A stretch of 45,766 nucleotides of DNA from Flavobacteriales bacterium (GCA_947487175.1 CANKVM010000010.1:1-45766), one strand, 5' to 3'. Counted from the stretch's first letter, positions 3,113-42,441 are shown. Notes: generated from the letters alone by a model not told the origin. Made by a program: numbers and translations.

Positions 3113-3406
3113 TCTTTCAAGAAATTGCAAAGCCTTTGCTTAGAAGCTGGCGTGAAGGTTGTAAAGACACCGTCCCTCAATAACGCACCCATTAGCGGCG
3201 CCACCCGCTGGCTCAGCGATACCCCTTTGATTCAATTGACTGACAATGCAAACCAAATTGATCATTTTGGGTTCACATTCTTCCACGAAGCCGGACATAT
3301 TTTGTTGCACGGCAAAAAGGACGTCTTTTTAGAGAATTTGGAATACTCAGACAAAGACAATCAAAAGGAAATTGAAGCAGATGAGTTCGCCAGAAAGTGG
3401 GCTTAA
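3113..3406 (+). pseudogene. ImmA/IrrE-type metallopeptidase fragment
   Basis: The frame encodes the C-terminal part of an ImmA/IrrE-family zinc peptidase, as found in XRE/HigA-like antitoxin proteins. It contains GATRWLSDTPLIQLT, then FTFFHEAGHILLHGKK with the HEXXH zinc motif (HEAGH), then EIEADEFAR with the third-ligand Glu region. The N-terminal DNA-binding half is absent. Upstream of about 3113 the frame (open from 3056) shows unrelated sequence antisense to the VWA fragment. The C-terminus stops a few residues after ADEFAR, earlier than is usual. The catalytic motif is intact but the gene is truncated, so I call it a pseudogene fragment. Confidence 0.7.
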
Positions 3407-3408
3407 AA

Positions 3409-3472
3409 GTGCCAAAATATCTGGTGATAAAAAAGCTGACTAATACGAGGAAGGTAGCAATGATTTCAAAAC
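3409..3472 (+). pseudogene. Degraded duplicate of the SOUL haem-protein gene
   Basis: This short segment matches the intact SOUL gene downstream in two blocks. The first is 3409-3438 against 7461-7490 (27 of 30 identical by eye). The second is 3439-3473 against 7555-7589 (29 of 35). The intervening 64 nt of the intact gene are missing here. The deletion boundary shares the triplet CTG, as expected for a microhomology deletion, and its length would shift the frame. The piece is in the same orientation as the intact gene about 4 kb away. Confidence 0.8.
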
Positions 3473-3478
3473 CATTTT

Positions 3479-4378
3479 TTATTTGTGCGGTGTCATAATG
3501 CCATCTTTGTTTCTTTGCAGTTTAAGATTTACTAAGATTTCGTGCAAAGTTTCAGCAGCCAATCCATGCAAAACCAGACGGTAAGCTGCGCTATATGTTG
3601 TTTCAGGCACCATTGGGTGTTTATTGTTAACCAATCCCAAATGACCTGGAGTGCCTAATATTTGTGCGGTATAGATAGCTATTGTTTCATCCAATTGCAA
3701 TGAATTTGAAGCCCTAACAAAATCGTTAGACGTTAAAAACAACTGGTAAAATGGGGTAAACAATTCAATGGCCGACCTTAAGTCTAATGTGTTTCTAAAC
3801 TTATTTGGAAACGCAATGTGATTGAATTGGTCAGTTGTTATCATATCTAAGTTTAAAGGACTTTTTCCAACAATAGGAATTCCCTTTTCCTTTAAATCCT
3901 TGTTTAACTTTATTACAAAATTGTACAAATTTAAATCGTGTTTCAAAAATAAATCATCCTTAATATCCTCAAAATCGTAAGGCTTTAACGGCGATGTTTT
4001 AATTTCAATATTCTCAATATTTGCAGCAATAAATTCCATTATTTCACTGCCTACGTGAAAATGTCTGAAGATAAGTAGGTTTGCATCGGGACTTACATAA
4101 CGCTTCAATCCCCACGCTAAAATTTGATGTAATATTTTTGATGAGTTAATTAATTTTGGAAAAAAGAACTTAAAAATATGGATGAAAAACATCGTTATTT
4201 TTGAAGTAACTTTAATTACCGGCAACAAATATTTTGCCGACCTTGAGTCATTGTCCCTCATCAATGACAATTTTGTTGTATTGTTTATTGGTATGCTCAA
4301 ATCGAGGTACATAGCCAACCAAGGATTGGGGTCTCTTTCATCGTGAGCATCTAGAAGTTCGGATATGTTTTCTTTCAT
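3479..4378 (-). CDS. Conserved-looking hypothetical protein in a lipid-type cluster, 299 aa
   Basis: I do not recognise a named family. There is no signal peptide. A hydrophobic stretch around residues 55-75 (ITMFFIHIFKFFF) could be a membrane-associated helix. The protein contains scattered His and acidic residues (HDERDPNPW near the N-terminus, FRHFHVGSE near 105), but I cannot assign a catalytic site. It is the last gene of a minus-strand run of three, 73 nt after the ketosynthase fusion, so a role in the same lipid-like pathway is inferred from context only. Its 3' end lies only a few bases from the decayed SOUL copy, which marks the boundary of the cluster. Confidence 0.7.
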   Translation of the reverse strand: MKENISELLDAHDERDPNPWLAMYLDLSIPINNTTKLSLMRDNDSRSAKYLLPVIKVTSKITMFFIHIFKFFFPKLINSSKILHQILAWGLKRYVSPDANLLIFRHFHVGSEIMEFIAANIENIEIKTSPLKPYDFEDIKDDLFLKHDLNLYNFVIKLNKDLKEKGIPIVGKSPLNLDMITTDQFNHIAFPNKFRNTLDLRSAIELFTPFYQLFLTSNDFVRASNSLQLDETIAIYTAQILGTPGHLGLVNNKHPMVPETTYSAAYRLVLHGLAAETLHEILVNLKLQRNKDGIMTPHK

Positions 4379-4451
4379 AATTGATTTTTTAAATTGTTAT
4401 TGCCATTGGTTTGAATAAGTCTTTTAGATTTCCAAATAAACAAAATTTAAT

Positions 4452-6302
4452 TTAATAATTGCCAATTTCTTCTAATTGCATTTTCCATAATTTGGCTGTT
4501 GTTTTAGCGGTTTTGGCAATTTTCTTGGCTATTTCTAAATTCATTTTTGGATGATTTAAAGCTTCTTCAAGTTTATGAAAATGATTTTCATCGGCTACAC
4601 CATGATAGGTAAAAAACGAAACCTGTTCGTCAGTCAATTGAAGTTGCTCTTTGATCATCAAACCCCAATAACTTGCCAAGCGTTTACCGATTCCCTCAAT
4701 AATAAACATAGCACCTAATAAATCAATCGGGTTCTGCTTACTTGCTTGCTGAAACATAAACCCTGACAACGCCATGCTACCAATGTTCTTTTCGTTGGTT
4801 TGAATGGCAGATAATTCTTCACCTAAATTTACAAAATTGCGCTCTAACATTTGATAGTCTTTGTGCTCCGCGGCGGTATGCTTTATAAATGCTGAACGCA
4901 AATCGAACAGTTCTATATCGATATTTGAAGCAGCCCTAGAAATCCACTGTGAACCGTCAATGACTTGTTGACGTAGGTCGTGCAACAATAATTTATAATC
5001 AGCCAAACTGAGTTTCCCCGCATGAATTTTAGTTATTATTGGAACTTTTAACAATTCGGTTTCAAAGTCAATCCAAATTTGAGCCAACTGCCTAATTAGC
5101 CATTCCGAAGTATCTGATTGATTTATAACCAATTCAGGGGTTTCTACCTTTCTAAATGGAAAACTAATTTCATTTTTGTGATCTGGCATTTCCACTTTTA
5201 GTTGCATAAAGGAAGTGATAAACCTTCCACTTTCTGGAACCATACATAAAATGGTATCGCCTTGTTTTAATTTGCCAGAATACATCAATTCTTCTAACAT
5301 AATAAAAATGGAAGCAGAACCGGTATTGCCTTTTGACGACAGGTTGTTAAACCATTTTTCTTCGGATATGGTGCCACCGCCTTTTTCCATTAAATCCTGA
5401 ATGGGCTTTTTAAACACCGCAGAAGAGTAATGGCAACAAAACCAGTCAATGCTATCTTTTTTGATTTTCCCTTCGTCTATGAGTTCAAAATAATGTGCTA
5501 CGCCCGTTTGAACCATTTTGTCGAGTAATCGAACATCTTGTTGTAAATTTATTGCACCTGCTTTTGAAGCTTCTTCATAACTTGGGTAATCAAGCCAGGT
5601 TTTCTCATTTTCGTTTTGATTGTCGGTTTTACCCGTGTACATGCAAACTGGAAATTCATTGGCATGCGATTTAAGTTCTATCCAATCAATTTTTAATGAA
5701 ACTTGTTTTTGGCTTTTTTTATTTTCCAATACAAATGCACCAGCACCATCGGAAAGCATCCATCTCAAAAATTCTGTATCAAAAGGCATCGATTTTACTT
5801 GTTGTGCTTCAAACCTCGATGCTTTAAACAACCTACTTGACAATTCACTTCCCACACAAACGGCATTTTCTTTTTCATCGCTTTTGATTTGGGCATAGGC
5901 ATTTTTCAATGCCATCATACCACTCGCACAAACACTCTGAAAACTAGCCACTTCACATCTGTTAAAATCAAGTCCAGCATGAACCATACTCCCAAAACCA
6001 GGTATTGGCAAATCGCCTTGAGTTGTACCCGTGCTTAAAAGCGTAATTTCTTTTGACCGCAATTCACTTTTCGCAATTGCCGCTTCAATCGCTTTTATGG
6101 CAAGTTCGGCATTTGAGTGGGTGGTTTCTTGGTTTTTATTCAGTGCATAATACCTATTTATAATGCCATTCTGTTTTAGAATACGTGGTTTTAATGCACT
6201 TTCTTTTCCATATACCTTACCTAAATAATCTTCCATTTCATCATTCGAAACAGGGTTATTTGGCAAAAACACACCGGCACTTGTTATATAAATATTTTTC
6301 AT
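4452..6302 (-). CDS. KAS III-type ketosynthase fused to a haem-oxygenase-like metal-binding domain, 616 aa
   Basis: Residues 1-370 form a thiolase-fold KAS III (FabH-like) domain. The Cys-His-Asn triad is visible as Cys125 (SVCASG), His291 (FCCHYSS) and Asn326 (SKGNTGSAS), so condensation activity on acyl thioesters is expected. Residues about 395-616 are all-helical and look like the haem-oxygenase/TenA-like superfamily that includes iron-containing redox enzymes. Candidate ligands are His475, Glu479 and His480 (HTAAEH), Glu536, and His567, Asp571 and His574 (HGVADENH). A usual KAS III has about 330-370 residues, so the C-terminal domain is a true addition. The start overlaps the upstream hydroxylase stop in ATGA, indicating coupling. 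Product and substrate are unknown; a modified fatty acid or polyketide-like lipid is inference. Confidence 0.85.
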   Translation of the reverse strand: MKNIYITSAGVFLPNNPVSNDEMEDYLGKVYGKESALKPRILKQNGIINRYYALNKNQETTHSNAELAIKAIEAAIAKSELRSKEITLLSTGTTQGDLPIPGFGSMVHAGLDFNRCEVASFQSVCASGMMALKNAYAQIKSDEKENAVCVGSELSSRLFKASRFEAQQVKSMPFDTEFLRWMLSDGAGAFVLENKKSQKQVSLKIDWIELKSHANEFPVCMYTGKTDNQNENEKTWLDYPSYEEASKAGAINLQQDVRLLDKMVQTGVAHYFELIDEGKIKKDSIDWFCCHYSSAVFKKPIQDLMEKGGGTISEEKWFNNLSSKGNTGSASIFIMLEELMYSGKLKQGDTILCMVPESGRFITSFMQLKVEMPDHKNEISFPFRKVETPELVINQSDTSEWLIRQLAQIWIDFETELLKVPIITKIHAGKLSLADYKLLLHDLRQQVIDGSQWISRAASNIDIELFDLRSAFIKHTAAEHKDYQMLERNFVNLGEELSAIQTNEKNIGSMALSGFMFQQASKQNPIDLLGAMFIIEGIGKRLASYWGLMIKEQLQLTDEQVSFFTYHGVADENHFHKLEEALNHPKMNLEIAKKIAKTAKTTAKLWKMQLEEIGNY

Positions 6303-7018
6303 TTTTGTTTTGTTATTAAATAGTCTAAAAAGGGAGATAGAAAACCATAATTATTTTTATATTTAAAATGATGATCGTTATGGTTTGTGCCAAAAAGACT
6401 CCAAGATTTACCAGTGCCATTTCCAAATCGGTAATTACAATGACCTGAATAGTTTATCAAAATGCTAGATAATGGATAAAGGGCAATGGCCATGGGCGAA
6501 AAAGGTATAAATAGCGATATAGTTAGAGGAACTGTGCTCAGTAATAAAGCTTCTAACCAATGAAAACTGTATACTGAGTATACTGTAGGAACTTTAGATT
6601 TATGGTGAATGTAATGCACATTTCTCATAAAAAATGGCAAATGCATTGTTCTATGAACAATAAAAAAGTGAATTTCATTCCAAACGTTTAAAATCACCAA
6701 ACCCACCAAAATATTGAAAATAGTATTTGGCAATAATGTAATTACTCCCATTCGTATGAAATAAATAACAGGGAAAATTGAAGTTCCAAAAATGAGTATC
6801 GATTGTATAGAGTTTTTTATTTCAAATACAATTTGCTTTTGGGCAACTTCTTTCTCAACTATTTTATGTGCTATTTTTTTTGAATAAAGTAGTTTACATA
6901 CGCCATCAAAGATTGGGGCTAGTCCGAAATACAAGGCAATGAAATAGGCAAAACTCAACCCGTATAAGGTAAAGTAAGAGTAACTGTAAAGAAAATTATG
7001 TAGTTGTTCTTGAATCAT
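6299..7018 (-). CDS. Sterol desaturase / fatty acid hydroxylase family membrane protein
   Basis: This 239-aa integral membrane protein has about four hydrophobic segments (residues 15-35, 70-92, 95-115, 155-190). It carries the diiron histidine boxes of the fatty acid hydroxylase superfamily: HFFIVH (117-122), HYIHH (135-139), an isolated His193 and HNDHH (213-217). Members use O2 and a diiron centre to hydroxylate or desaturate lipids. It is the first gene of the minus-strand cluster and overlaps the ketosynthase fusion by four bases (ATGA). The arrangement suggests that a lipid made or elongated by the fusion protein is oxidised here, or the reverse. The substrate cannot be read from sequence. 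Confidence 0.87.
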   Translation of the reverse strand: MIQEQLHNFLYSYSYFTLYGLSFAYFIALYFGLAPIFDGVCKLLYSKKIAHKIVEKEVAQKQIVFEIKNSIQSILIFGTSIFPVIYFIRMGVITLLPNTIFNILVGLVILNVWNEIHFFIVHRTMHLPFFMRNVHYIHHKSKVPTVYSVYSFHWLEALLLSTVPLTISLFIPFSPMAIALYPLSSILINYSGHCNYRFGNGTGKSWSLFGTNHNDHHFKYKNNYGFLSPFLDYLITKQK

Positions 7019-7373: not shown

Positions 7374-7964
7374 ATGAAACCTTGGGCAATAATTACAATT
7401 GTGATATCCGTAATTTTGATCGGATTATTATTATATTCATTTAAATTGAGGGACATTGAAATGCCGAAATATCGGGTGATAAAAAAGCTGGGCGAGGTTG
7501 AAATTCGCGAGTATCCAAGTTTGATCCTTGCGCAAACATCCCTCAAAAAATCTGACTACGACGAGGAAGGCAGCAATGGTTTCAGAACTGTGGCGGGTTA
7601 TATTTTCGGGGGAAATCAATCGCAACAGAAAATTGCCATGACGGCCCCTGTGATCATGACAATGGGCGATTCTGCATCGATGTCGTTCGTGATGCCCAGC
7701 GAATACAAAATGCAAGACCTTCCCACGCCATCGAGCAATCAGGTAAAATTGATTCAAGAAAACGCTAAAATTTTGGCTGTGATTCGTTTTGGGGGATATT
7801 CGAGCTCTGAAAAGATTCAGAAGTATGCAGACCAGCTTTACTTGGAACTAAAAAACAACAAGTTAGAAACCCGTGGCAAACTACTTTACTTGGGTTACAA
7901 CGCCCCATGGGACGTTACCAACCGCCGCAACGAAGTTGCCATTGAATTGGTGAAGGCTGAGTAA
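7374..7964 (+). CDS. SOUL-family haem-binding protein, membrane anchored
   Basis: This 196-aa protein has an N-terminal hydrophobic helix (residues 4-21) that probably anchors it in the inner membrane. A SOUL/HBP domain follows: YRVIKKLGEVEIREYP, then GFRTVAGYIFGGN, then KIAMTAPVIM, and a C-terminal GYNAPWDVTNRRNEVAIEL. These are the usual SOUL landmarks and the length is normal. SOUL proteins bind haem or related tetrapyrroles; their bacterial role is poorly known. A broken copy of codons 30-72 lies at 3409-3472, on the far side of the lipid cluster. The word TTGAGGGAC occurs at 7446-7454, encoding Leu-Arg-Asp with a rare AGG codon. The gene converges with the TPM genes downstream. Confidence 0.88.
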   Translation: MKPWAIITIVISVILIGLLLYSFKLRDIEMPKYRVIKKLGEVEIREYPSLILAQTSLKKSDYDEEGSNGFRTVAGYIFGGNQSQQKIAMTAPVIMTMGDSASMSFVMPSEYKMQDLPTPSSNQVKLIQENAKILAVIRFGGYSSSEKIQKYADQLYLELKNNKLETRGKLLYLGYNAPWDVTNRRNEVAIELVKAE

Positions 7965-9317: not shown

Positions 9318-12300
9318 TTATCGTAACAAATAAAACACCAATGATTTGTTCTCTACAACATCGCGGTAGGCCGATTTGTACTGATATTGGTAGTTCAAAA
9401 TATAGGCGCCATTCATTGCCTTATCCCCATTTGCATTCCCATCCCAACCAGGTGAACTTAAATCACCTTTAAACAAGATTTCGCCCCAGCGATTTATAAC
9501 TTGATATTTCAACCAAGTAACATCGGTAGTTACCGGTTTGTAAAAATCATTTAAACCGTCACCGTTAGGTGTAAATGCAGTTGGAACCACAATATGACAA
9601 TCTTCGTCGAGATAACCCACACGAATGGTATCAGAAATGGCCCCACAAATATTGGTGACATCTATAATGTATGTCCCCGCTTTGTTAATTCTGCGCACCG
9701 GAGAAGTTATTCCATCTCTCCATGAATATGTAGAATTCCAGGATTTAACTTCAAATTCTAAAATTTCATTTTTGCAAATTGTGGTATCATTGCCCAAATC
9801 AACCGTTGGCTTTGGATAAACCTGGGTATATTGAATGCTGCTATCGGAACATCCGTTTACGGTTATTCTATATTTCACAGTATCGCCCCACAATACCATT
9901 GGAACAAACAAATTCCCCTGCATATTATGTCCCTCAAAAACACCACCTTGCGTATTTGGTACAATGGTTTCAAAAGGATTTCCTTGGCAATAATATGTTC
10001 TCAACTTTGCAAAAACCGGATCCGGCATTGGCTTCACATAAACCAATTTGTACAAAGTGTCAAAGCAATCAAAAACGTTCGACTGCACCAAAACAATTTT
10101 CTTAAATCCGGTATCTCTGAATTTATAATTCACAGAATTCGGATCTGTAAAGTTGTTATTTTCTATGCTCCAATAAGTATTTTTCAATCCAAAACTATCA
10201 GTACTTACATTGGTAAATAAGTAATCATTTTGTCTTACACATTGGGCACTGTCATTGATAAGCATTTTTGCCTTGGGTTTCGGATGAATATGAATTAACC
10301 TTTTCGTACTGTCAATACAACCGCTGTCTGAATAAGTATAAAGGGTGATGGTTTCAATACCAGTATAATTATAGTTTTTGCTATGTTTGAATCCATTTCT
10401 AATGTCATTTCGCCCTAAATTGAAGATATATTGTACAATATTTCCTTTCACAATGTTACTGGTAGATTGGAATACAAACAAAGGATTTGGCTCACATTGA
10501 CCCGTGTCGTTGATTTGGAAGGACGGCTTCGAATTTGGATTTACCCAAACCTGTTTATTCATAGAATCTTTGCAACCAAAGTCGGAAGTGGAAACCAATT
10601 TGATTCTGTAATTGCCAATGCGAACATAGGAATGCGTTGTATTTGCAATTGATGAAGCCGTTGAATCTCCAAAATCCCATGCCGTTGAAAGCGTACCTTT
10701 TTTAAGTTTTGTAAGATCCTGCAGCTGGAAGTCTTGTGTTTTGAAACATTTTCCAGCGGTATCGATTGAAAAGTTCACTTTGGGCATAGACATAACCTCC
10801 ACAATTTTAGAAATGGTATCGGTACATCCAAAATTGGTAATGGTAGATAGTAGTACAACGTAGGTAGTATCCTTTAAATAAAAATGAGAAGCATTTGGTG
10901 CGTTCATTGAGGCTCCATTGCCAAATTCCCATTTGTGGGCCATTGAACCATATTTCACCGTAGTTTTATTGGTGAACACATATTTATTTTGATACAAACA
11001 TTGCTTAACGGCGTTTATATCAAAGTTTTCCATTGGTTTTGGATAGGTTACAAACTGTTCTGTAACAGAATCCATGCAACCAAAGTTTGTTTTTTCTACC
11101 AATTTTATATCATAAATGGTATCTTTAGGGAAGAAACGAGTAAATGTTTTCAGGTTGCTATTGAACCCATCACTGATTACCCAACTAGAAGCGAAACTTC
11201 CTTCGCCAATAGTTGACAATGATTTAAACACAAAGGATTGGTTATTTACGCACTGGGTTGAATCGTTGGTATTTAAATCAACCAATGGCATGTCGTTTAC
11301 TTTGATCAAACGCCCAAATGTGTCTGTACATCCTTTTTCGGAAGTTGCCCTTAAAACGGGTCTATAAAAGGCCCATTTTTTGTATTTATGGGTTGGAGAT
11401 ATGGTTGTTGATGTTGTAAAATCGTTAAACGACCAATTATAGGTTAATGTGCCTTTTCGGATACCAGAAGTATTGGTGAAAATATAATTATTTTGACGGA
11501 GACATTGCGCACTGTCGTTCAGCGTGAAATTTGGTGTCGGTTTTGAATGCACCGTAATGATTCTCAAAGCGGTATCCAAACATCCCTTATTCGAAGTTTC
11601 AATTAGGGTTATGAGATGATTTGTATCTGGGGTAAAGGTATACGTAGTTGGGGATGCCACATTATTTGTACCTGAAAAAATCCAACGACGCGCATTGCTT
11701 CCCAACGCAATGGTAGATATATCTGTAAAAACAAAATTCTGATTGTTAATACACTGAGCGGTATCGTTGATGGTAAACTTTGCCTTCGGCATTGGGTGAA
11801 CCACTGTTTGATTAAAGAATGTATCGATACACTGGTTATTTGAGGTTGTAACAAAGGCCAACTTGTAGGTTCCATAACTCGGATAAACGTGATTCAATAC
11901 CGATGTGGCAGCTTGAATGGTATCGCCCCAAGTGGTCATATAGGTCATACTTCCATAATTGATTGTAGACTTTGGCGTTAATGTAAATGCATTGGTTCGA
12001 TAACATTGTGCACTGTCTTTCACCGCGTACTTCGAAACTGGCATTGGCCAAACAATCATGGTTTTCTTAATTGAATCTATGCAGCCATAGTTGGTGGTTG
12101 TAATTAACTGAGCAAAGTGGGTGTTAAAATTGGGATACTTGTTATTTCCATTCACCGAAGTTTGGGATTTTCCATCTGAATATTTCCAACTATTCTTGGT
12201 GATGGTGCCATATTTCACTTTTGATTTGTTTGTGAATTGGAAGTTGTTGTATCGCAAACATTGATCGCTATCGTTGGTTGTGTATGAAGGATAAGGCTTC

Positions 12301-15300
12301 GGATAAACTTCAATAGATAAAGTAAGTGAGTCCATACATCCATATTGGCTAGTCGTTACCAATTTCACTTTGAAAAAGGTGTCTTTGGCGTATTTTCTTG
12401 AGGGACTTTTTACCGTTGAGGTAGAATCTTGGAACTTCCATTTTCTGGCATACGTTCCATACGAAACCGTTGACAAATCGTTGAATGTGAAAAGTTGTTG
12501 ATTTACACACTGGGTAGAATCATTAATGCCAATCTTGGTTTTTGGCATTGGCCTTACATAAGTGGTTTTACTAAAGGAATCTTTACACCCTTTTTCTGAG
12601 GTAGCAACAAGTTTAACGAGATAAGTCCCAAAGGAAGCAAACACGTGGGTTGGACTTTTTGCTGTGTCTGATTTTGTATCGGCATAGGTCCATTTGTAAG
12701 ATAATTTTCCTTTGCGAATTCCAGATTTGTTTGTGTACGTGAATGTATTTTGGGTAAAGCACATTGAACTATCTGAAGGGGTATAAAGCACTTTCGGCAT
12801 TGAATGCACAGTAACTTTATTTTTAAAGGTATCTAAACATCCAAAGTTGGACGTGATCACTAAAGTAATATAATGGGTGGTATCGGGAGTGAATTTTCGG
12901 GTAACGATAGATCGGTTGGAATTTGAATCTGCAAACATCCATTTCCTCGTATAACTTCCTGATGAAATACTTGAGATATCCGTGAACACAAAACTCTGAT
13001 TCGCAAGGCATTGTGCAGAATCATTCACTTTGTATTTGCTTACTGGCATTGGAAAAGCAATTGTTTTTTTGATCAGTGTATCAATGCAATTATTGTCTGT
13101 AGTTGCAATGTTTATAACATTGTAAGTTCCAGAAGTTGCATATTTATTTACATTGCTATTTCCAGTGTAGGTTTTCCCATCTCCCCAGAACCCTTTATTG
13201 GTAACGGTGCCGGAGCTTACCGTTGAACTGGCGGTTACGGTGAATGAATTGTATCTCACACATTGGTCACTGTCGTTAAATGTAATTTTAGAAACGGGCA
13301 TTGGAAAAGTAATGGCCTTTCTGCTGAAAGAATCTACACATCCATTGTTACTGGTAACAATAATTTTGGGATAAAAGTTTCCAACCAAGGCGTGTTTATA
13401 GGTGCCTTTTGAAGTATTTTGAGTGGTGTTGTTTGGATATTTCCATTTATATGAAAACGAACCATTTTTAATAGTTGTGGTTGATGTTAAAATGAAGGTA
13501 TTCCAACGTAAACATTGGTCGGAGTCGTTCAAGGTATATGAAGGATTGGGTTTGGTAAAGATGATCATTTTTCTGCGTGCAGAATCAATACATCCGTATT
13601 GGCTTGTTTTAATTAATTTCACAAAATAAAACGTGTCCTTCGGGTATGTCCTATTCACTACCCCATTCACAGAACTTGAATCGTGGAACATCCATTTTCT
13701 GATTGTGCTGCCATAAGGTATTGTGCTTATGTCGGTAAATACAAATTTCTGTTGGTTGATACATTGATCGGTATCGTTCACTTGTATTTTAACAACGGGC
13801 ATTGGGTATACAATAATGCTTTTTGTAATGCTGTCGGTACAACCATAATTAGAGACGGCGCGTAATTTGGCTATGTAATTTCCATATACTGGATAAGTAT
13901 AAGTGGGATTGTACGTTGTGCTGTTATTTCCGTTTCCAAAGCTCCATTTTGCGGTTACCGTTCCTGTGGTGATGGTGCTCGTATTGGTAAATTTGAATAC
14001 ATTTTGGCTGTAACATTGGTCGGAGTCGTTTACTGTGAAACTTGGCTTCGCCATCACATTTACCCTAAAATATTGTGAGGTTGTATCGCCGCAACCGAAG
14101 TTTGATTTTGCATACAATGTAACCAAGTATCGGCCTATGGCTGCATATGATTTTGAGGGACTATAAACTGAGGAATTTGATCCATCACCGAATGTCCAAT
14201 ATGCAGATAATTTGCCCCAATTGATTGTTGTATTGTTGCTAATGTTATACTTGTTGGTACTCAAGCACTGGTTTGTATCGGGAACAGAGAACTTTGCCTT
14301 AGGCATTGGTAAAACCCTAACGGTTTTAATCATGGTATCTAAACAGTTCAAGTTCGTTTTTGTAATCAAACGAACATAAAAGAGTCCCGTGTCTGTATAG
14401 CGATGTTTTACCGTTTTGCCAGAATCTTTGTTGCCATCACCATATTCCCAGCGGTAGGTGTAGGTTCCTTTATTCAGGGTACTCCCTTCGGTGAATGTAA
14501 ATTGATTTACATTAAAACATTGAGGGATATTATTTACAGTGTAATCGGGAATTACAGAAGGTTTCACTCTAATTGGAAAGATTACAGAATCTTTGCAGCC
14601 ATAATTAGAAATACTTACAAGTTTAGAGGTATAATATCCATCCAAAACAAACCGATATTTAAATAATTTAGATGTACTGGTAACGCCATTGCTTAATGTC
14701 CATTTAGAACTCAAATTTGTCCATGGAATAGTAGAAACATCTTTCATATTAAAAGTATGTTGCGTTAAGCACTGAGCACTATCGTCTACCGATGCCTTTG
14801 CCGTTGGATTGGGGTAAACAGTTGTTGTTTTAGAAAGAGAATCCTTACACCCTTTTTCAGTGGTTACAACCAATTTTGTTGTATAAAACCCATGACTGGC
14901 ATACAAATGGGTGTCGTTATAGGTTATGGCTTTGGTATTGTCGCCACGGTACCAAATTTGCGATGCCAAGGCTTGTTTCCCGGTTGAGTTATTGATAAAA
15001 GATATGGTATTCTTATCACATTTGGGATTATTCGCAAATAACACTACAGGTCTTGACCAAATAGTGTATTCTTTGCTAATATTCTCGGTACATCCTGCCG
15101 TATTCGATACATAGAGCCTCACCGTATAGGTTTTATCGGTCAAATATTTTTCTGAGGGATTTTGAGATCCCGAGGCAATACCATTGCCTAAATCCCAGTA
15201 CCAATATTGAATTTTATCACCAACTGATATAGATTGATCTGTAAATTGCGATGTTTCACCAATGCAATTTGAAGTAACCGTAAAACTAGGTACAGGTGCA

Positions 15301-18300
15301 AAAGAAACCTTTACATATTTCACAATGGTATCGGAGCAGCCTTTGTCGGAATATACTGTGAGTTTTACCCTGTAATAACCGGTGTCTTTCCATTGATGGA
15401 ATGGGTTTTCCTTTGTGCTTGAAGTACCATCTCCAAATTCCCAAATAAAACTCTTCAGATAACCTGTTTTAATGGTGGTATAGTTATAAAAACTTGTAGC
15501 AAGCTGTTTACAGTCTGTATACCAGTAAAAGTTCATTTTCTGCAATTCCCAAACTGTAATTTTATGTTTAAATGCCAAACTGGTATCCGGATAAATCGTA
15601 GAGCAAACATTGGTTGAACCATTTATTGTAAATGTACCTCGTGCAACCAAGTATGGGTAAAAATCTCCATAACCCGTATATTTCAAACTTACTGAAGTGT
15701 CGCTGGTGGTATTTAAGTTATTGTTATTAATGTCATTGAATTGCCAAATATAATTTGTGCCATAGGTTGATTTATTCTTGAACACTACATTTAACGGACT
15801 GCAACCAATACTGTCGCTAATAATTTCATATTTCGCAGTTGGACCCACTACCATTATCGTTTTTTTGAAACTATCAATACATCCCCTATTATTCCTTACT
15901 GTTTGGGTAATTTTATAGGTGCCTGTATTTAAAAATTTGGTGGGATTTGGGAATTTGATTTTGGCAAATTGTGGACCTAAATCATATGTATAATCGTTTA
16001 TAATATCTCCAGACAATGTTCTTTTTGAAGTATCTGTGGTAGATGCTGTTGAAGTAAGTTTTACAGATTGTGGGCAAAGGAAAGTATCTGCAGGGGATGT
16101 AAATCCAGCATACAATCCAGATACCTGCACTTGTTGGATATTCTGAAAGGTATCATAACAACCCGCACTATCCTTGGCAATTAACGAAAGATTATAAATT
16201 CCCGGACTGTTGTAGACAACCTTAAAGTTCGAAGCAATGTAGTTATACCCTTTTCCATCGTCGAGGTTGTACCAACATTTTTCTTTTCCTGCAGTTGCTC
16301 TGGCAGTGTTACTAAATAAACCGGATGGAGATGATCCTGTTGGGTAATAACGGCAATCTTCTTGAAAAGCAATAGTGTCCCTCACACAAACGAATTTTCT
16401 ACTTAAATACATGTCCATTTTAAATCCAACATGTATGAATTGAGTATCTTCTAGCAAGCAGCCTGAAGGATTAACAACTCTGAGAATTATCCGATAATCA
16501 CCGGCTTTAGTATATGTATGAAATTTAAAATGTTGAATTGTGTCAGAAACTACAGACCCATCGCCAAAATTCCAGGTAAATTTCGTGCCTTTTGTTTGGT
16601 TTGAATCGGCAAGGTAAAAGAGTATTTTCGTGTTTTTACAAATATATTTATTGGGGTTATAGGTAGAAGTGAATTTGGAACTCATTCTTACAATTCGAAT
16701 CACTCTTGGAAACCAGGCAGTGTCTCTACAAACCACACCATTTGTATCCGTACCATTTTCTACAATCAAACCTGTAGTCACATATCCCAAAGAGTCTCCA
16801 GCCAGCGGGGTAAGTGCATAGTTATGTGTAAATTTATTAAAAGACCAATAGTTATTAAAACTTCCACTTTTGGCAGCCTGCAGAGAATCCCACATAATCC
16901 ACATTGCATACTTTAGGCAACTAGGTTTAGGCCGGGTCGAGTCAAACCAAACGGTTTTGTTTTGAAGTACCGAACTTGGACCTGGGCATGCCAATGTATC
17001 TGACGGGGTAAAACTCCCTTTAGCCATAGGCTTCATTAGGGGAAGCTGGGCATAGGTAATATCTGTGCACCCAAGGGCTGTATCTGTAACCCTTAAAGAA
17101 GCGTTGTAGCATTTGTCAACCAAACGCGGGTAAAAATGCTTAAATTTCAGCGAATCTTTCGAATAGTTACAATTGCTGTTGGCATTTATTCGGGCTTTGG
17201 TATCGGTGGTGCAGGTATATGTTAAATCGTCGGCATTCCAAAAAGAAACCAATTTTTTATTTTTATAGGAATAAGATCCATTTTCAAAGTACACAGTGTC
17301 GTGTGCTTGACATTGGAATTGGTTTTGAATTTGTTTAAAACGAGCTATCGGACCAGTAATTACAATTGAATCTAGCTTGCGAATACTGTCGCACCCATTT
17401 TTACTGATGGTCACATAAGGATAAAACACTCCAGTTTTGCTATAATGGTAACTTCCTGAAAATATATTGCTTGTGGTTGGCCCAATAAAACTCCATGTAA
17501 TTTTCGAATTGGCAATAACAGTTTGAGCAAAATCAAATTTATTGTCACTATAGCAACTGCTGTAAATTTTTGTAATTTTGGCATCTACCGGGAAACTTGT
17601 ATTTCTAACCCTATTTTTTGTTAGAAAGGTATCGGTACAACCATTAATATCGGTAATTGCCAATTTGGTGTAAAAATCTCCATCTTTCGAATACAAATGG
17701 GTAGTCTTTGTCCAATTTGTAGTATCAATACTTCCATCGTCGAAAATCCAGGTGAATTTTTTTATTTTGGAAAAAGAGATATTCGAGCTATTTGTAAAAG
17801 AACCTGTTGTACCAAAACAACCCGATATAATCGAATTATCAAGTTTGGCAGTAACAATTGGACGAATGAAAACCACACTGTCTTTGGTAATTTGGGCACT
17901 ACAATTACTCGAATCAACCATTTCAACTGTAATGTTGTAGATACCACCGTTTTTATCAAGATAAGCATGGCAAATGAGTGTGTCTTTGAATGCGCTAAAA
18001 TCATCAGTATAACCATCATCAAAGATTATTTTTCGAGATTTTAATGATTTGTTTTTTGAGGATAATTTGATGCAAACATTGTTATTGCGGAAACACTGAG
18101 TGTCTTTAATAACGGTGAATGTTGCGTCAGGCGTATTGTTAATTAAGACCGAAGGAACAACTACGGTGCAAGAAGTGGTAGCAAATGCTACAGTTAATTT
18201 GGGATAAACTTTTTTGCCTACCGTATACACATGTTTTGATGTTTGTCCAGAACCCGTTGTTGAATCACCATAATTCCAAGTGTAGCTTTTTGCTGCTGAT

Positions 18301-26389: not shown

Positions 26390-26986
26390 TTATGCCTTTT
26401 TTATCCAAAACTTCAAATATGTTTTGAATAACGAATCCTTCAATTGATAAGTACTTGGAATTTCTGGTCCAGAACTGTGATAAGTGACAACCCTCGTGCC
26501 AACAGGCATTTGTTCGAGCTGCTTATGCACATAGGCCGAATATTCTAAATACAACTCATCATCTAAAAAAACAGTTTGATCTAAGGCAGATTCAGGCGAT
26601 AAGTTTTCAAAAAAGGGATTAAATAAATAAAAGGCATTGAAATCTTTGAATTTAATACGATCAATATTGGTATTCAAAAAACTCACATTATCAATGCTGT
26701 ATTTATTGGCAATTTCATCGCCACATTTGCAATAATTGGCTCTCTGCTCCACCCCAGTGAAATGAGCATCAGTGGTTAACGCACCTACAAAACAAAATTT
26801 ACCGGCGCCTGAACCAACATCCAAAATTCTAATGTTTGGCTCTGTTGCCAAAAATTGCGCCGCTGCTTTGGCAATTTTAATGGGAGTAAAATGGGTAGCC
26901 GACTTTCGGCGAATTTCAAGTGGAAATATCAAATCGAACTCTTCATCCGTTAAATCGTGTAAGTTTTTTAATTTTGAGGGATGCAT
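26390..26986 (-). CDS. Class I SAM-dependent methyltransferase, 198 aa
   Basis: The Rossmann-type motif I is clear as ILDVGSGAGKFCFVGAL (about residues 54-70). It is followed by FTGVEQR (acidic residue after beta 2) and FNAFYLFNPFFEN, an NPF-like motif at the position of the substrate-proximal NPPY/DPPY loop. The N-terminal part contains ATHFTPIKIAKAAAQFL, as often seen before the SAM domain in RNA or protein methyltransferases. The substrate is not identifiable. The gene lies just downstream of xseB on the same strand with a gap of about 26 nt, so it is likely in the xse operon. It carries a near-match to the TGAGGGAC word near its start. Confidence 0.8.
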   Translation of the reverse strand: MHPSKLKNLHDLTDEEFDLIFPLEIRRKSATHFTPIKIAKAAAQFLATEPNIRILDVGSGAGKFCFVGALTTDAHFTGVEQRANYCKCGDEIANKYSIDNVSFLNTNIDRIKFKDFNAFYLFNPFFENLSPESALDQTVFLDDELYLEYSAYVHKQLEQMPVGTRVVTYHSSGPEIPSTYQLKDSLFKTYLKFWIKKA

Positions 26987-27219: not shown

Positions 27220-27222
27220 AAC

Positions 27223-28613: not shown

Positions 28614-30842
28614 TCAAATTAAGGTAGCTCTGGCAATTTTAATTTCGAAATAATCGAATTTATCGTTCAGTTTGGCTTTGATTTCACTTAATTTATCTCC
28701 TGCATTTGAAATTTCGGCACAAATTTCATTGAGGGTAAGTTCATGCATAAAATCAGTTGCTTTTAACTGTTTTAATTCTACGCATTTTACCAAATGGGTT
28801 TCTACGGTAGATCGCGATAAATCTCTTTCCAATGCAGTTTTCTCAACCGATTTTAATTGCTCATAAACCTGTTTTGTTAATAGAATATTTTCAGGAATTT
28901 TGATTTCGCTGCCTTTGGTTTTTGCAGTTTTCTCTTTGGGCAACTCCCCTGTTTTTTGTCCCTCAGAATCTTTTTTATTTGTCTGCACAGAAACTGTATT
29001 CCCGACAGACAATTCTAATGGAATTTCGCCTTCAAACAACCGAATACTTCTATATGAAACCTGAATCAATTGTTGGCGTTTGGCAAACAACACATTCGAA
29101 ACAGCTTCAATTTCTTTGCGCCATTTCTTTTGCTTGTTTTTTAATGTGTAGGCATCAAGCATCAACTTCAATTCCTTTGCACTTCTCACATCCATTTGAT
29201 TCACAAAATAAACCGTTGCCTTAGAACAGCGCTCTGTTAAAGTTGGCAACAAGTCGGAATTGGATTTACATTCGGCAAAAGTTTGGTTGATTTGATATTG
29301 AAACTTCTCTGCAACTTTTTGAATATCAAACAACACAGAAATCGTTTTTTCAGACCAATCGTTAATGTCTTGAGGGAATTCAAGCCCGAACTTAGCTAAT
29401 AATCTATGTTTCCAATTGTAAACAAAGACTCGAATTGGGTCAAATTCATAAATACGCAACAACTTATCTTGTCCAAATTGTCTTTTTTCCTGTTCTAAAA
29501 TTTCAGGCAGCTGATCGGTAGATACATGATTTTGAGAATATTCAACAATACGGGGATCAATTAAAATGTTTCGGCCATTGATACCCGACTTCAAATACAA
29601 ACCTTCGAGGGTAACGCACCTACTCAAGGCAACATAAACTTGACCTGGAGCAAATGAACGTTCCGCATCAATGATTACTTTTTCAAGGGTTAATCCTTGA
29701 CTTTTATGAATAGTTATAGCCCAAGCCAATTTCAACGGAAAATGCTTAAAGCTTCCCACCTCATTTTGCATTACCCTATCTTCTACTTCGTCGTAATTAT
29801 ATTTTAAGTTCTGCCAAATATCTTTCTCTACTTCTATAATTTCTCTAGAATTGGGAATTACGACCTCAATTTTATCATTTGAAATAGACGATACAACGGC
29901 AATCTTTCCGTTGTAGTATCTCTTTTCACCGGAAATATCGTTTTTAATAAACATAACCTGAGCCCCTTCTTTGAGTTCTAAAATGGGCTCTGCAGGATAT
30001 TGACTTTCAAAGAAATCGCCTTTTATTTCTGCGGCAAATTTGAAAGAAACTCCAGCTAGTTTTGCAAGTTTGTCTTTATTTATATGATCTGCCGTTGAAT
30101 TGTGGCTACAAAGGGTAACAAATCCCTCCTCATCGGGTTCAAAATGAGGTTGATAGCGTTCTTGCAATATTTCATAGTCGCCTTCATTTAACTGCGCATT
30201 CCTTACATTATTGAGCAATGAAATAAAAGTTCGGTTGCTTTGTCTGTAAACCTTATTCAATTGCATTTGCATCACATTCAAGGCTTGATATGCCCTGGAT
30301 GAGAAGAAATACTCAGAATCATAGTATGAATCAAGGAGCATTTTTTCGTCTTGCTTCACTACCGGAGGTAGCTGAAACAAATCGCCAATGAGCAAAACCT
30401 GTACCCCACCGAAAGGCAAATGGCTACGTCTGGAGAAACGCAGAGAATTGTCAATGGCGTCGAACAAATCGGCCCTCACCATTGAAATTTCATCGATGAT
30501 TAATAAGTCGAAATTCTTAAATAAATCCAGTTTTGGTTTTGGATAATGAAAATGCGATTGCAGCATTGGAATATTCTGCGATACATTTGGGTCAACCACG
30601 CTGGTTGTCGGTAAAAACATTCTGGTTGGAAGTCCAAACATCGAATGAATGGTGCTTCCGCCGGCATTGATTGCGGCAACACCTGTTGGTGCCACAACAA
30701 TGCACTTCTTGTCACTTTCCCTCAAAACACGCTTTAGAAACGTTGTTTTACCTGTACCAGCTTCACCCGTAAGGAACATATTTCGCCTTGTATTTTCTAC
30801 AATATCGAAAGCAACGTCGGCAATATCTAAATCGTTATTCAA
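28614..30842 (-). CDS. PIF1/RecD-like helicase with C-terminal HTH domain, 742 aa
   Basis: Walker A is FLTGEAGTGKTT (residues 23-34). VVAPTGVAAINAGGSTIHSMFGLP is the Ia-type motif, LLIIDEISMV is Walker B, and GGVQVLLIGDLFQLPPV and FPLKLAWAITIHKSQGLTLEKV complete the SF1B set. A C-terminal region (about 650-720, KQVYEQLKSVEKTALERDLSRSTVETHL) looks like the HTH domain often attached to RecQ/Pif1 proteins in Bacteroidota. The role is DNA unwinding in repair or recombination, and neighbouring xseA fits this. The start is TTG at 30842: the next Met is residue 22, directly before Walker A, too late to keep the family's N-terminal helix. A TAnnTTTG box (30850-30857) just upstream would make the mRNA almost leaderless. 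Confidence 0.9.
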   Translation of the reverse strand: MNNDLDIADVAFDIVENTRRNMFLTGEAGTGKTTFLKRVLRESDKKCIVVAPTGVAAINAGGSTIHSMFGLPTRMFLPTTSVVDPNVSQNIPMLQSHFHYPKPKLDLFKNFDLLIIDEISMVRADLFDAIDNSLRFSRRSHLPFGGVQVLLIGDLFQLPPVVKQDEKMLLDSYYDSEYFFSSRAYQALNVMQMQLNKVYRQSNRTFISLLNNVRNAQLNEGDYEILQERYQPHFEPDEEGFVTLCSHNSTADHINKDKLAKLAGVSFKFAAEIKGDFFESQYPAEPILELKEGAQVMFIKNDISGEKRYYNGKIAVVSSISNDKIEVVIPNSREIIEVEKDIWQNLKYNYDEVEDRVMQNEVGSFKHFPLKLAWAITIHKSQGLTLEKVIIDAERSFAPGQVYVALSRCVTLEGLYLKSGINGRNILIDPRIVEYSQNHVSTDQLPEILEQEKRQFGQDKLLRIYEFDPIRVFVYNWKHRLLAKFGLEFPQDINDWSEKTISVLFDIQKVAEKFQYQINQTFAECKSNSDLLPTLTERCSKATVYFVNQMDVRSAKELKLMLDAYTLKNKQKKWRKEIEAVSNVLFAKRQQLIQVSYRSIRLFEGEIPLELSVGNTVSVQTNKKDSEGQKTGELPKEKTAKTKGSEIKIPENILLTKQVYEQLKSVEKTALERDLSRSTVETHLVKCVELKQLKATDFMHELTLNEICAEISNAGDKLSEIKAKLNDKFDYFEIKIARATLI

Positions 30843-36321: not shown

Positions 36322-37206
36322 ATGAAAAAGTTGATTTTTAGTTTGGTTTTTCTTTCTATTTTGTCTCTTGAGGGACAGAATAATATACGAAATTTTTCGC
36401 ACATTTCCAAATCAAAATACACTTTTGAACAGTTTATACTGCTCCCTAAGGGCATTTCTGAAACCTCAGGATTATATTTCGATGGAACTACAGTGTGGAC
36501 AATGAACGATGGTGGCAATCCCTCGGAAATCTTTGGATTGTTTAATCTCTATGACTCAACAGTTAGGCTAAATGACGATAATATCATCAAAACCCAATTC
36601 CCCCTTCCACTGAAAAATATTGATTGGGAAGCCATAACTGGAGATTCTGATTTTATATACATTGGCGACTTTGGAAACAACCCAGGCAATAGGAAAAATC
36701 TGTGTATTTATAAGATTTCAAAAAAACAAATTCAAAATAACCGCGTTGAAGTTGTTGATACCATTCAATTCAATTACCCCGAACAAACCAATTTCGAATC
36801 TAGGTTTTTTCATAATTTCGATTGTGAATCCATGTTTATCAATGGCGATTCTATTTATTTACTCACTAAAAATTGGCAAAATAGGCACTCTGAAATCTAC
36901 CGATTACCAAAGAAAAATGGCACTTATCCTGCGCAATTAATTGGAAGTTTCAAACCGAATTTCTTAATCACCGATGCTTGTTTGGTAAAGAGCAAAATTT
37001 ATGTAACTGGATACAATTTCAAGGGAAAACAATTTATAGGCAGCCTTAATTTTGGAAGTTGGGATGGATTTGAAAAGCAAAAAATAAAAATGAAACACGG
37101 TCAAATTGAAGGCATTTGCTTTGTTCCAAATAAAGGTTTTATTTTGAGTACCGAACAACGAAAAACCCGCTGTGCCGGAATTTTCTCAATTAAATCAAAA
37201 GAATGA
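36322..37206 (+). CDS. Secreted beta-propeller-like protein, 294 aa
   Basis: A signal peptide (about residues 1-19, LSILSLEGQ) precedes repeated beta-rich blades such as SETSGLYFDGTTVWTMNDGGNPSEIF, NIDWEAITGDSDFIYIGDFGNN, FNFDCESMFINGDSIYLLTKNW-like and HGQIEGICFVPNKGFILSTEQ. This pattern (ExIxxDxxxIYIxDxGNN) resembles uncharacterised secreted propeller proteins related to the esterase-like phytase fold. No catalytic residues can be named. It lies 33 nt after the BNR protein and overlaps the GH53 gene by four bases (ATGA), so it belongs to the same operon. The word TTGAGGGAC (36368-36376) encodes part of the signal peptide end (Leu-Glu-Gly). Confidence 0.75.
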   Translation: MKKLIFSLVFLSILSLEGQNNIRNFSHISKSKYTFEQFILLPKGISETSGLYFDGTTVWTMNDGGNPSEIFGLFNLYDSTVRLNDDNIIKTQFPLPLKNIDWEAITGDSDFIYIGDFGNNPGNRKNLCIYKISKKQIQNNRVEVVDTIQFNYPEQTNFESRFFHNFDCESMFINGDSIYLLTKNWQNRHSEIYRLPKKNGTYPAQLIGSFKPNFLITDACLVKSKIYVTGYNFKGKQFIGSLNFGSWDGFEKQKIKMKHGQIEGICFVPNKGFILSTEQRKTRCAGIFSIKSKE

Positions 37207-38288
37207 AAAAGGATTGGCAATTTATTTTGGCTTTTTTAATGGCAATCACGTTAATTGCCTGTAAACAAGAACCTACAAAAACAATTGAAATTCCAAAAAC
37301 AACTACAGATCCATACATTGCTGGAATTGATATCAGCGCCCAAGTACTTATCAATAAAACCAACACCCAATTTTATGATAGTTTGGGTAGACCAATCAAT
37401 GTATTAGACTTTTTGAGGGACAATGGAATAAATACCATCCGTTTGCGCACTTGGTATGGCAACAACAATGAATATTCGTTGCAAACGATGTCACAATTTG
37501 CCAAGGAAATTGAAAGTAAATCTTTGAGAACATGGATAGACATCCATTATTCTGAAACCTGGGCTGATCCGGGTAACCAAGCCATTCCCTCAACCTGGAA
37601 AAACAAGCCATTCAATGAAATTATTGACAGTTTAAAAAGCTACACCGATTTGGTTTGTAAAACTACCAAACCCTATATCATTCAAATAGGCAATGAAATA
37701 AACAATGGATTTATTTGGCCAACGGCTTCAACCAACGATTCCCTTAAATTTTTTCAATCACTTAGGGCATGCTGCAATCAGGCTAGAATTTCAAGTCCAA
37801 CATCAAAAATCTTGATTCATTATGCTGGTTATCGCAACGCGTTGAACTTCTTTTGGTGGTTAAGAGACCACAACGTTGATTTCGACATCGCAGGTATTTC
37901 TTATTACCCTAAGTGGCATGGTAAATCATTAGATAGTTTGTATTCAACCATGCAGTCTATCAATTATTATCTCAACAAGCAAAGCATTGTTGCCGAAACC
38001 AGTTATCCTTTTATTGATGGTTGGAACGATTATACATTTAATCCAATTGGATCAACCGCCGCAGAATTATTATCACCATACACAGCAACGCCAACTGGAC
38101 AATATCAGTTTTTTAGAGACCTTGTAAATAGAAGTAAGAAACTCAGCTTTGCCTCAGGCGTTTGTTATTGGGAAGGCACATGGGTTGCTTACCGCGGCAA
38201 AACCGCCACGGATGGTTCACCTTGGGAAAATCAAGCCTGGTTTGACTTCAATAACAAAGCACTACCCATTATAAACGCGTTCAAATAA
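37203..38288 (+). CDS. GH53 arabinogalactan endo-beta-1,4-galactanase, lipoprotein
   Basis: Residues 1-20 form a lipoprotein signal with lipobox LIAC (Cys20), placing it on a membrane surface. The catalytic domain matches glycoside hydrolase family 53: YIAGIDIS, GINTIRLRTWYGN, WIDIHYSETWADPGNQ, IIQIGNEINNGFIWP with the expected acid/base Glu165, and SIVAETSYPF with nucleophile Glu265. Family members cut beta-1,4-galactan side chains of pectin. The length (361 aa) is typical. It overlaps the upstream secreted protein by four bases. Its TAA ends 1 nt before the stop of the convergent AAA gene, leaving no room for a terminator. TTGAGGGACA occurs at 37413-37422. Confidence 0.92.
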   Translation: MKKDWQFILAFLMAITLIACKQEPTKTIEIPKTTTDPYIAGIDISAQVLINKTNTQFYDSLGRPINVLDFLRDNGINTIRLRTWYGNNNEYSLQTMSQFAKEIESKSLRTWIDIHYSETWADPGNQAIPSTWKNKPFNEIIDSLKSYTDLVCKTTKPYIIQIGNEINNGFIWPTASTNDSLKFFQSLRACCNQARISSPTSKILIHYAGYRNALNFFWWLRDHNVDFDIAGISYYPKWHGKSLDSLYSTMQSINYYLNKQSIVAETSYPFIDGWNDYTFNPIGSTAAELLSPYTATPTGQYQFFRDLVNRSKKLSFASGVCYWEGTWVAYRGKTATDGSPWENQAWFDFNNKALPIINAFK

Positions 38289-38289
38289 G

Positions 38290-40917: not shown

Positions 40918-40997
40918 AAGCAATGCTATGTATTGCTAACAAACTTAAATAAAAGCAATGAAACTTGAGGCTATCCCTCAAAAAAAAAGAAATATTT

Positions 40998-41678
40998 CTA
41001 CAAAGTCCAATTAATGCCCGATGTAAGGCCAATTGAATTAAATCCCACTCCAAAATTCGCAAACCAACCGAAGCCTTTCAGAGCTTCCATTGAGTGCTTT
41101 ACCCCAATTACTGTAAGCTGCAATGCCTTAGACGTTACATTTAAATTTAAATCCTCAACCCCATTTCCTGTTCCACTGGTAATTTCTCGAGAACCGGTTA
41201 GATTAAATAAACCAAGAGAAATACCACTATGGAAAGCAAATGTAGATTTTGGACGTTTTATTTTTTTCCAAAAAACATCAACTGAAGTCATTAAAGATGT
41301 TAGCGCTATGTTGTAGTAAAATTCAGAATTTTGACCAACATTTTGGAAATCAGGCATGATCTTTTTATCACTTGTTACACTAGATGAACAATATACCATG
41401 CCAATGCTAAATTTATCTCTTACATGGTATTGATATCCAATGATGAATGGACTTGAAACATTCATATTCGCTTCAGGGAAACTATTTAATAGATTTTTCT
41501 TTACTGCATCTCCAAGTGTATCCAAAATAGGCATATTCCCTGACCCCATATAAAAGGTAATTGCCTCCTTTTTGAACAAATCCTTCTTTTCAAGTGGTGC
41601 AATTTGTGCATTTTGAGCATTTACTGAAGAAAAACCATAAGTTAAGAGCAACAAGAATAAATATTTTTTAACGTTCAT
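40998..41678 (-). CDS. Outer-membrane beta-barrel-like secreted protein, 226 aa
   Basis: The ATG at 41678 (MNVKKYLFLLLLTYGFSSVNAQ) gives a clean signal peptide; the frame continues upstream to 41735 into the SIMPL gene. The mature part has amphipathic strands such as FIIGYQYHVRDKFSIGMVYCSS, FAFHSGISLGLFNLTG and GWFANFGVGFNSIGLTSGINWTL, with a C-terminal aromatic-hydrophobic strand typical of barrels. The exact family is not clear. It follows the SIMPL gene after about 43 nt, likely in one operon. Confidence 0.72.
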   Translation of the reverse strand: MNVKKYLFLLLLTYGFSSVNAQNAQIAPLEKKDLFKKEAITFYMGSGNMPILDTLGDAVKKNLLNSFPEANMNVSSPFIIGYQYHVRDKFSIGMVYCSSSVTSDKKIMPDFQNVGQNSEFYYNIALTSLMTSVDVFWKKIKRPKSTFAFHSGISLGLFNLTGSREITSGTGNGVEDLNLNVTSKALQLTVIGVKHSMEALKGFGWFANFGVGFNSIGLTSGINWTL

Positions 41679-41721
41679 AAAGGCAAAATAATAGAAAAAA
41701 GCGAATAGAAAAAAAAGAAAG

Positions 41722-42441
41722 TTATTTAATTTCAAATTTTACAGTAACCTGATATTCCAATTTCATGGATTCAAAATCAACTGCGTTTGCTGCGTTGTCC
41801 TCTAAATCTGATTCACTAATTGACCATTTCGACTTTTTATCGCTCATACCAGCAAGGTAATTAAATGTTCTTGAAATACTTAAATCTTGAATATCAGAAA
41901 CATATAAAACACTTCCAATAGATTTGCCTAACGGCGCTAATAGATAAGTTGCCTTTTCTTGGGCATTCTTTACTGCCATGATTTGGCCTTGTTTTTTCAA
42001 ACTATCAATTTTAGAATGATCCACTTTTTCAATCCAGGCTTTATACACCATCCAACGATCTAACTTGGAAAATAACGTATTCAATTGTTTTACGTTTTGC
42101 AATTCAATCAAATATGTTTTATGCGCAATGACTGATTTTCCGAGCTTTCTAACCTGCATATAGTCGGTACCAGCATCCTTCATTTCAATTTTGCTTTTTG
42201 GAATTTGCATTGTTTTCATGAGGGACAATAAACTGTCTTCTTGTTGTTTGTAGGTGTATGTATGCTTTACATCGGTGCGTTCATCTAATGTAACCGAAAC
42301 AAAAACTCTGTCTGGAATGATTTCCATTTTAGAGTTACCAGTTACATCAATTGCATTGATATTGGTAAAATTTTGAGCTTGAATTGTATTGGCTTGATAG
42401 ATCAGAGCCAAGCAAAAAATAATTCTATATATATTTCTCAT
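41722..42441 (-). CDS. SIMPL-domain periplasmic protein (DUF541), 239 aa
   Basis: I choose ATG 42441 (MRNIYRIIFCLALIYQANTIQAQ), which opens a signal peptide; the frame extends to 42531 without one. The mature protein begins INAIDVTGNSKMEIIPDRVFVSVTLDE, the characteristic SIMPL opening, followed by YTYKQQEDSLLSLMKTMQIPKSKIEMKDAGTDY. A long helix (KKQGQIMAVKNAQEKATYLLAPLG) and the final strand KLEYQVTVKFEIK complete the fold. SIMPL proteins are periplasmic or secreted and of uncertain role, with links to oxidative stress in some species. TGAGGGAC lies at 42219-42226, read antisense as Ser-Leu-Met. Confidence 0.85.
   Translation of the reverse strand: MRNIYRIIFCLALIYQANTIQAQNFTNINAIDVTGNSKMEIIPDRVFVSVTLDERTDVKHTYTYKQQEDSLLSLMKTMQIPKSKIEMKDAGTDYMQVRKLGKSVIAHKTYLIELQNVKQLNTLFSKLDRWMVYKAWIEKVDHSKIDSLKKQGQIMAVKNAQEKATYLLAPLGKSIGSVLYVSDIQDLSISRTFNYLAGMSDKKSKWSISESDLEDNAANAVDFESMKLEYQVTVKFEIK

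Follow-up and report, generated by a model that had tools for sequence, protein, structure and literature searches.

The stretch of DNA analysed here (the window) comprises 45,766 nucleotides on contig C10 of Flavobacteriales bacterium (GCA_947487175.1 CANKVM010000010.1:1-45766), an uncultured freshwater bacterium with a genome (G000) of 2.42 Mb in 156 contigs, and the element under study is the 8-base word TGAGGGAC, which is scattered through its genes. An initial annotation of the window had listed 16 exact copies, seven on the plus and nine on the minus strand, and all were recovered at those positions and in those orientations, against 0.46 expected (mean of 100 dinucleotide shuffles, maximum 3). 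Copies of TGAGGGA with A or T as the next base, put at about ten, numbered exactly 10 (2.3 expected), and the guanine-plus-cytosine (GC) content, estimated near 36%, was measured as 35.2%. The density of TGAGGGAC in the window was 35 per 100 kb, about twice the genome average of 17 per 100 kb. The copies had been placed in genes with few exceptions; in fact 16 of 16 lay in open reading frames (ORFs), where they contributed to different peptides in different frames (LRD, MRD, VRD, FEG, SEG, TEG, IEG, SPS and LSL), as described. One description was too strong: extension to TTGAGGGACA, attributed to most copies, was found in 6 of the 16.

Named relatives for comparison were found via the exonuclease VII gene; L029 is titled after a pond and L031 after a lake (Erken). 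The top-scoring site of the window, an exact core within the full consensus TTTTTGAGGGACAT, lay at 9929-9936 on the minus strand (motif score 21.3). Exact cores in the form TTGAGGGACA were located at 7447-7454 (plus strand, score 17.7), at 36369-36376 (plus) and, in a GH53 gene, at 37414-37421 (plus), the latter two being conserved in L029 and L030. The gene for the exonuclease VII large subunit held a divergent pair of the same form, with 27408-27415 (minus) conserved in L029 and L030 and 27435-27442 (plus) conserved in L029, L030 and L031. Inverted-repeat or terminator pairing was considered for this pair and rejected, as no 12-base inverted repeat surrounds it. The other exact copies of the minus strand lay at 3172-3179 (score 16.4), 4253-4260 (13.0), 16377-16384 (12.2, conserved in L029), 21149-21156 (20.9, conserved in L030), 24056-24063 (18.2, not conserved in L030) and, in a PIF1-like helicase gene, 28958-28965 (conserved in L029 and L030); those of the plus strand lay at 12399-12406 (20.5, conserved in L029), 14154-14161 (19.8, replaced by TGAGGGAT in L029) and 42219-42226 (17.2).

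The remaining exact copy, at 21767-21774 on the minus strand and conserved in L030, falls in a protein with two PhoX stretches, and here the natural control pointed out in the annotation proved correct: the codons for TEGQ contain the word at 21765, while the paralogous TEGQ at 23505 is written without it (TTGACCTTCTGT). The protein in question (20091-25928) is a 1945-residue secreted fusion with phytase-like, PhoX-like and ASH/HYDIN-type immunoglobulin domains and a type IX sorting tail.

Variants of the word were present on the minus strand as TGAGGGAA at 4691-4698 (score 16.9), TTTTTGAGGGAT at 7538-7545 (19.3) and 40973-40980 (20.0), and TTTTGAGGGAA at 30717-30724 (17.3). On the plus strand they occurred as TTTTGGGGGAT at 7790-7797 (17.8), TTGAGGGATAT at 14521-14528 (12.5), TGAGGGAT at 15153-15160 (19.1), TTTTGAGGGAT at 26975-26982 (17.7) and TTGAGGGAA at 29371-29378 (14.3).

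Other genes of the window were noted as well. A 616-residue ORF at 4452-6302 combines ketoacyl-synthase III domains with a C-terminal haem-oxygenase-2-like domain and adjoins a fatty-acid hydroxylase (6299-7018), and the two may belong to an unusual lipid pathway; a 3223-residue PKD-repeat protein (9318-18989) carries a CHU_C type IX secretion domain.

Enrichment and anatomy of the motif

Counting in the whole genome and against a Markov model, as proposed in the initial annotation, revealed an excess far above expectation. The whole genome contained 414 copies of TGAGGGAC (212 and 202 on the two strands) versus 10 (3 and 7) for the reversed control, and 169 copies of TTGAGGGACA (88 and 81) versus none. 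In 439 kb of G000, under an order-4 model that gives a conservative expectation because it was trained on the same 439 kb, TGAGGGAC was observed 77 times with 8.6 expected (about 9-fold), and the 11-mer TTTTGAGGGAC 32 times with 0.56 expected (more than 50-fold). A single motif supplied the strongest words at each length from 8 to 12 bases in this sample. It is a degenerate motif built around the TGAGGGAC core, TTTTGAGGGA[C/T][A/T]T, and the iterated matrix was T-rich from position -8 to 0, followed by G A G G G A, then mostly C or T and then A or T. Matrix sites above background numbered about 62 per 100 kb, i.e. about 1500 in the genome or one per 1.5 kb. Information stopped about 3 bases 3' and about 9 bases 5' of the core, with nothing conserved beyond about 14 bases, and a long repeat or insertion element was rejected as the source on these grounds.

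The excess was independent of codon usage. When synonymous codons were shuffled with proteins and codon usage preserved, TGAGGGAC fell from 74 observed copies to 4.2 ± 1.7, so that neither codon usage nor a repeated protein motif accounts for it. The copies in genes ran 42 with and 32 against the direction of the gene and used all frames but the one that places TGA in frame. Outside ORFs, where non-coding DNA makes up about 5%, we found 7 of 145 sites of TTGAGGGA and 7 of 75 of TTTTGAGGGA.

Spacing of the motif sites was random (coefficient of variation (CV) 0.96-1.0). No long motif-free island was found, and as a sign of mobile DNA such islands were uninformative, since the largest gap (9.1 kb) matched that under random spacing (about 9.0 kb). 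The proposed test of strand against replication direction found no skew: in a 400-kb stretch of the related genome G007 the strands were balanced at 57:52, and within it at 40:37 over 280 kb of constant GC-skew sign, which speaks against an oriented chromosomal signal. Neighbouring sites were co-oriented less than half of the time in the 439-kb sample (51 of 136 for TTGAGGGA; 162 of 363 matrix sites, p 0.046), and in G007 in 49 of 108 cases, with no significant deficit. A viral carrier was also considered and rejected; in viral contigs the 14-mer stood as a single copy in each of at least 120 stretches, and otherwise TGAGGGAC occurred about once per 100 kb.

Conservation, dialects and competence genes

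Conservation at orthologous positions, likewise suggested at the outset, was measured on about 28-29 kb per close relative, with other 8-mers of equal GC content as controls, and the copies were conserved above these controls. In relatives of about 86% identity, 80-100% of the copies were intact, compared with 25-28% of the controls. Genome G007 (85.9% identity) had kept 9 of the 11 copies of the window's genome, which in the reverse direction had kept 9 of 9, and in G011 (about 86%) 10 of 11 copies were intact in either direction. At 71-73% identity, G006 and G004 had kept 3 of 7 and 3 of 3 (controls 6-9%). The alignments were ungapped at nearly all sites, showing that variants arise by substitution and not from an inserted element.

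The genus was sampled with 14 genomes (G000-G013), and a further 43 more distant genomes were compared. TGAGGGAC was abundant (245-491 copies) in G000, G004, G006, G007, G009 and G011; the eight remaining congeners and the whole set of 43 more distant genomes had it weakly or at a level near background. Four related dialects were recognised in the one genus, namely TTTTGAGGGAY, TTTTGGGGGAT (G013), TTTCKGGGGAT (as TTTCGGGGGAT and TTTCTGGGGAT in G012 and G002) and YGGGGGAAG (G005 and G010), with similar densities throughout (46-71 per 100 kb). Genome counts of TTTYNGGGGA, with the reversed control in brackets, were 455 (47) in G013, 373 (42) in G002, 312 (35) in G012, 287 (50) in G005 and 160 (35) in G010; those of YGGGGGAAG were 190 (28) in G005 and 131 (13) in G010. 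Across dialects none of 8 copies was kept (G000 versus G013). No enriched word was found in G001 and at most a remnant in G008, and samples of 80-100 kb from each of four further genera in the family showed none. The samples of G002 and G012 also contained clustered short repeats (GTCTCTAGTCTCTAG-like and CGGTGATCGGTGATCGG-like, respectively) unrelated to the motif. The dialects were congruent with a ComEC tree, in which the TGAGGGAC genomes formed one clade and G002 with G012 another, each fully supported, and G010 grouped with G008; G005 was not placed. Only this tree was used, because the exonuclease VII tree misplaced two rows, for which the longest open frame did not correspond to the gene.

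Of the competence machinery, the genus has the genes for the cytoplasmic and inner-membrane parts. ComEC was found in 12 of the 14 genomes and DprA in 11, including 7 of 7 motif-bearing genomes with a completeness of 90% or more; in G001 (98% complete), the only motif-less genome of this quality, DprA was not found. This pattern, with one or two losses, is no more than suggestive. In G008, which has no clear uptake-like word, dprA (G008:C12:55911-56513) is broken by an in-frame TAA. PF00437, the ATPase of type IV pili and type II secretion, was above the cut-off in 0 of the 14 genomes compared with 13 of 14 control genomes. A PDDEXK_1 (AddB/RecB-type) nuclease was encoded by all 14, motif-less G001 included.

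A comF-like gene (TIGR00201 match, E 5e-23, yet under the NCBI cut-off) lies directly upstream of a gene for a 1060-residue surface protein that combines Calx-beta repeats with a type IX secretion tail (L017:5347-9326; G000:C3:45347-49326). The two genes stood together in 20 of 23 loci, across the whole family, and the pair is possibly an unrecognised transformation operon of Bacteroidota. The surface protein scored at the edge of DUF5689, a domain found in one of the envelope proteins that Riemerella anatipestifer requires for transformation (PMC8459023). hmmscan did not list DUF5689, and against solved structures only the Calx-beta and sorting domains were convincing matches for the profile of the protein. 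We regard it as a candidate component of an uptake machine; it cannot alone be the cause of the motif, because it is also present in genera without a detected motif.

Readings of the motif and known uptake systems

Judged from the sequence data, TTTTGAGGGA[C/T][A/T]T probably serves a naturally transformable lineage of freshwater Bacteroidota as its genomic uptake sequence. The word is a DNA-level, strand-neutral signal borne by substitutions, is retained in position within a dialect and different between dialects, and recurs once per 1.5 kb, and in these respects it agrees with uptake sequences in the sequence features that allowed a clear comparison. The cell surface would bind and import double-stranded DNA bearing the motif in preference to other DNA, which would then be turned single-stranded those fragments and passed through ComEC, after which DprA (with ComF) would shield the incoming strand and RecA would recombine it into the chromosome. 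Biased uptake combined with recombination is the known mechanism, molecular drive, by which uptake words accumulate (PMC7811141). Because imported fragments would be enriched in the motif, recombination would keep restoring and spreading it, and the motif would drift into dialects jointly with its receptor. Molecular drive would account for the density in genes on both strands, the conservation at orthologous positions and the drift of dialects. As the genus is without a type IV pilus ATPase, the reader would be a different surface machine, of which the comF-linked, type-IX-secreted protein may be a component.

The initial annotation had named uptake sequences, Chi sites and HIP1 as analogues without choosing among them; our results support a DNA-level signal and favour uptake over the other two. 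A Chi site, read on one strand by an AddAB/RecBCD-type helicase-nuclease that would stop degrading the DNA and promote recombination instead, thereby sparing self DNA, is an unlikely alternative. The motif resembles Chi in being short, G-rich, non-palindromic, over-represented and located within genes, Chi words vary between species, and the nuclease is present in all 14 genomes. In model bacteria the known Chi words favour the leading strand, whereas the motif is balanced on the two strands of G007, neighbouring sites are co-oriented in only 51 of 136 cases in G000 and 49 of 108 in G007, and the enrichment is large for a Chi site. This explanation fails because strand bias is absent and because the nuclease is kept in G001, a congener without the motif.

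A signal of chromosome organisation, such as FtsK-orienting KOPS or SRS words or sites of the nucleoid or terminus, appears improbable, as does a word of unknown role resembling HIP1. The motif is genome-wide, G-rich and conserved in position, and it shares with cyanobacterial HIP1 an extreme octamer over-representation that is patchy among relatives. KOPS-type words, however, are strongly replichore-oriented, and this explanation fails for want of polarity in the strand-balanced, randomly spaced motif; HIP1 fails since it is a palindrome (GCGATCGC), whereas TGAGGGAC is not self-complementary and stands as an oriented word flanked by a T tract. There is little to recommend the notion that a DNA methyltransferase or another self-marking defence targets the word, with the dialects as changes of specificity. 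Such targets can be non-palindromic and vary between close relatives, but methylation does not predict enrichment, restriction targets being usually avoided and not enriched 9- to 50-fold, and the graded T-rich flank and degenerate 3' end are unlike a methyltransferase target. Both the Chi-type and the methylation explanation are less likely than uptake. An origin of the word in codon usage, in amino-acid motifs or in an insertion element can be dismissed, even with the majority of copies in genes, as it is refuted by the synonymous shuffles (4 versus 74 observed), the at least five peptide contexts, the differing codons of the paralogous TEGQ and the lack of conserved sequence past about 14 bases.

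The uptake reading has to be set against several observations. Uptake and transformation in this genus are properties that we infer, and the named relatives found are metagenome-assembled genomes only. The motif-bearing genome G005 is 96% complete, yet ComEC was not found in it; a single motif-less genome, or two at most, underlies the correlation with DprA; and G003 has DprA but no word detectable by the patterns used. No pilus-type machine was found in the 14 genomes and no receptor was identified; the candidate surface protein has a borderline DUF5689 assignment and occurs also where no motif was detected. In known uptake systems the word is scarce in coding sequence (PMC7811141), as well as in rRNA genes and recently acquired DNA, while the sites here were not found to be strongly concentrated outside genes, and P. 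gingivalis, a competent member of the Bacteroidota, shows no source preference (PMC5907639).

Taking both sides together, the most likely interpretation, as far as can be judged from sequence, is that the motif arose independently as an uptake sequence and has a reader other than a pilus. We lean towards a family of uptake sequences of independent origin, the third of its kind, that comprises at least four dialects in one Genome Taxonomy Database (GTDB) genus and has a pilus-independent surface reader, which possibly includes the type-IX-secreted protein co-encoded with comF. Such a third case would show that self-recognition motifs evolve repeatedly and without pilins. The motif would also be a probe for the missing DNA receptor of the Bacteroidota, and with four dialects in one genus the co-evolution of receptor and motif becomes directly testable; the dialects would further imply that these uncultured freshwater bacteria are sexually structured by their motif.

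Only in the Pasteurellaceae and the Neisseriaceae has sequence-specific uptake been described (PMC7811141); both families use type IV pili, and in Neisseria a minor pilin reads the word. No report of the present motif in bacteria was found in the literature searched, a coverage outside which most subscription journals and preprints lie. Like the DNA uptake sequences of Neisseriaceae, which have eight dialects (PMC3630211), the motif is a very abundant 10- to 12-mer on both strands, with an invariant core and dialects that follow phylogeny. It differs from them in its unrelated sequence (TTTTGAGGGAY), its Bacteroidota host and an uptake that is deduced from sequence, and no ComP-type pilin receptor is expected since the type IV pilus ATPase was found in none of the 14 genomes. 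With the uptake signal sequences of Pasteurellaceae (Hin and Apl types; PMC12616744) it shares a G-rich core, a degenerate A/T-rich flank, a density of about one per 1-2 kb and the existence of two or more types inside one family; unlike theirs, its A/T tract is mainly on the 5' side of the core, and the sequence and phylum are different and the pilus ATPase is missing.

The closest parallel within the phylum is transformation in Riemerella. Those Bacteroidota whose competence has been studied have no known pilus for transformation, and their outer-membrane importer is unknown. R. anatipestifer employs ComEC, DprA, ComF and RecA together with novel envelope proteins (PMC8459023), i.e. a non-standard envelope machine, and in R. 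columbina own DNA outcompetes foreign DNA, a self-preference of the kind proposed here (PMC7965970). In contrast to our motif, only A-rich words were reported there, the search in Flavobacteriaceae having listed them without reaching a conclusion or identifying an uptake sequence (PMC7965970). Given the absence of the pilus and the indirect case for uptake, we class the motif not as a proven member of the known class but as an element working in the manner of uptake sequences, and most likely as a new variant that does without a pilus.

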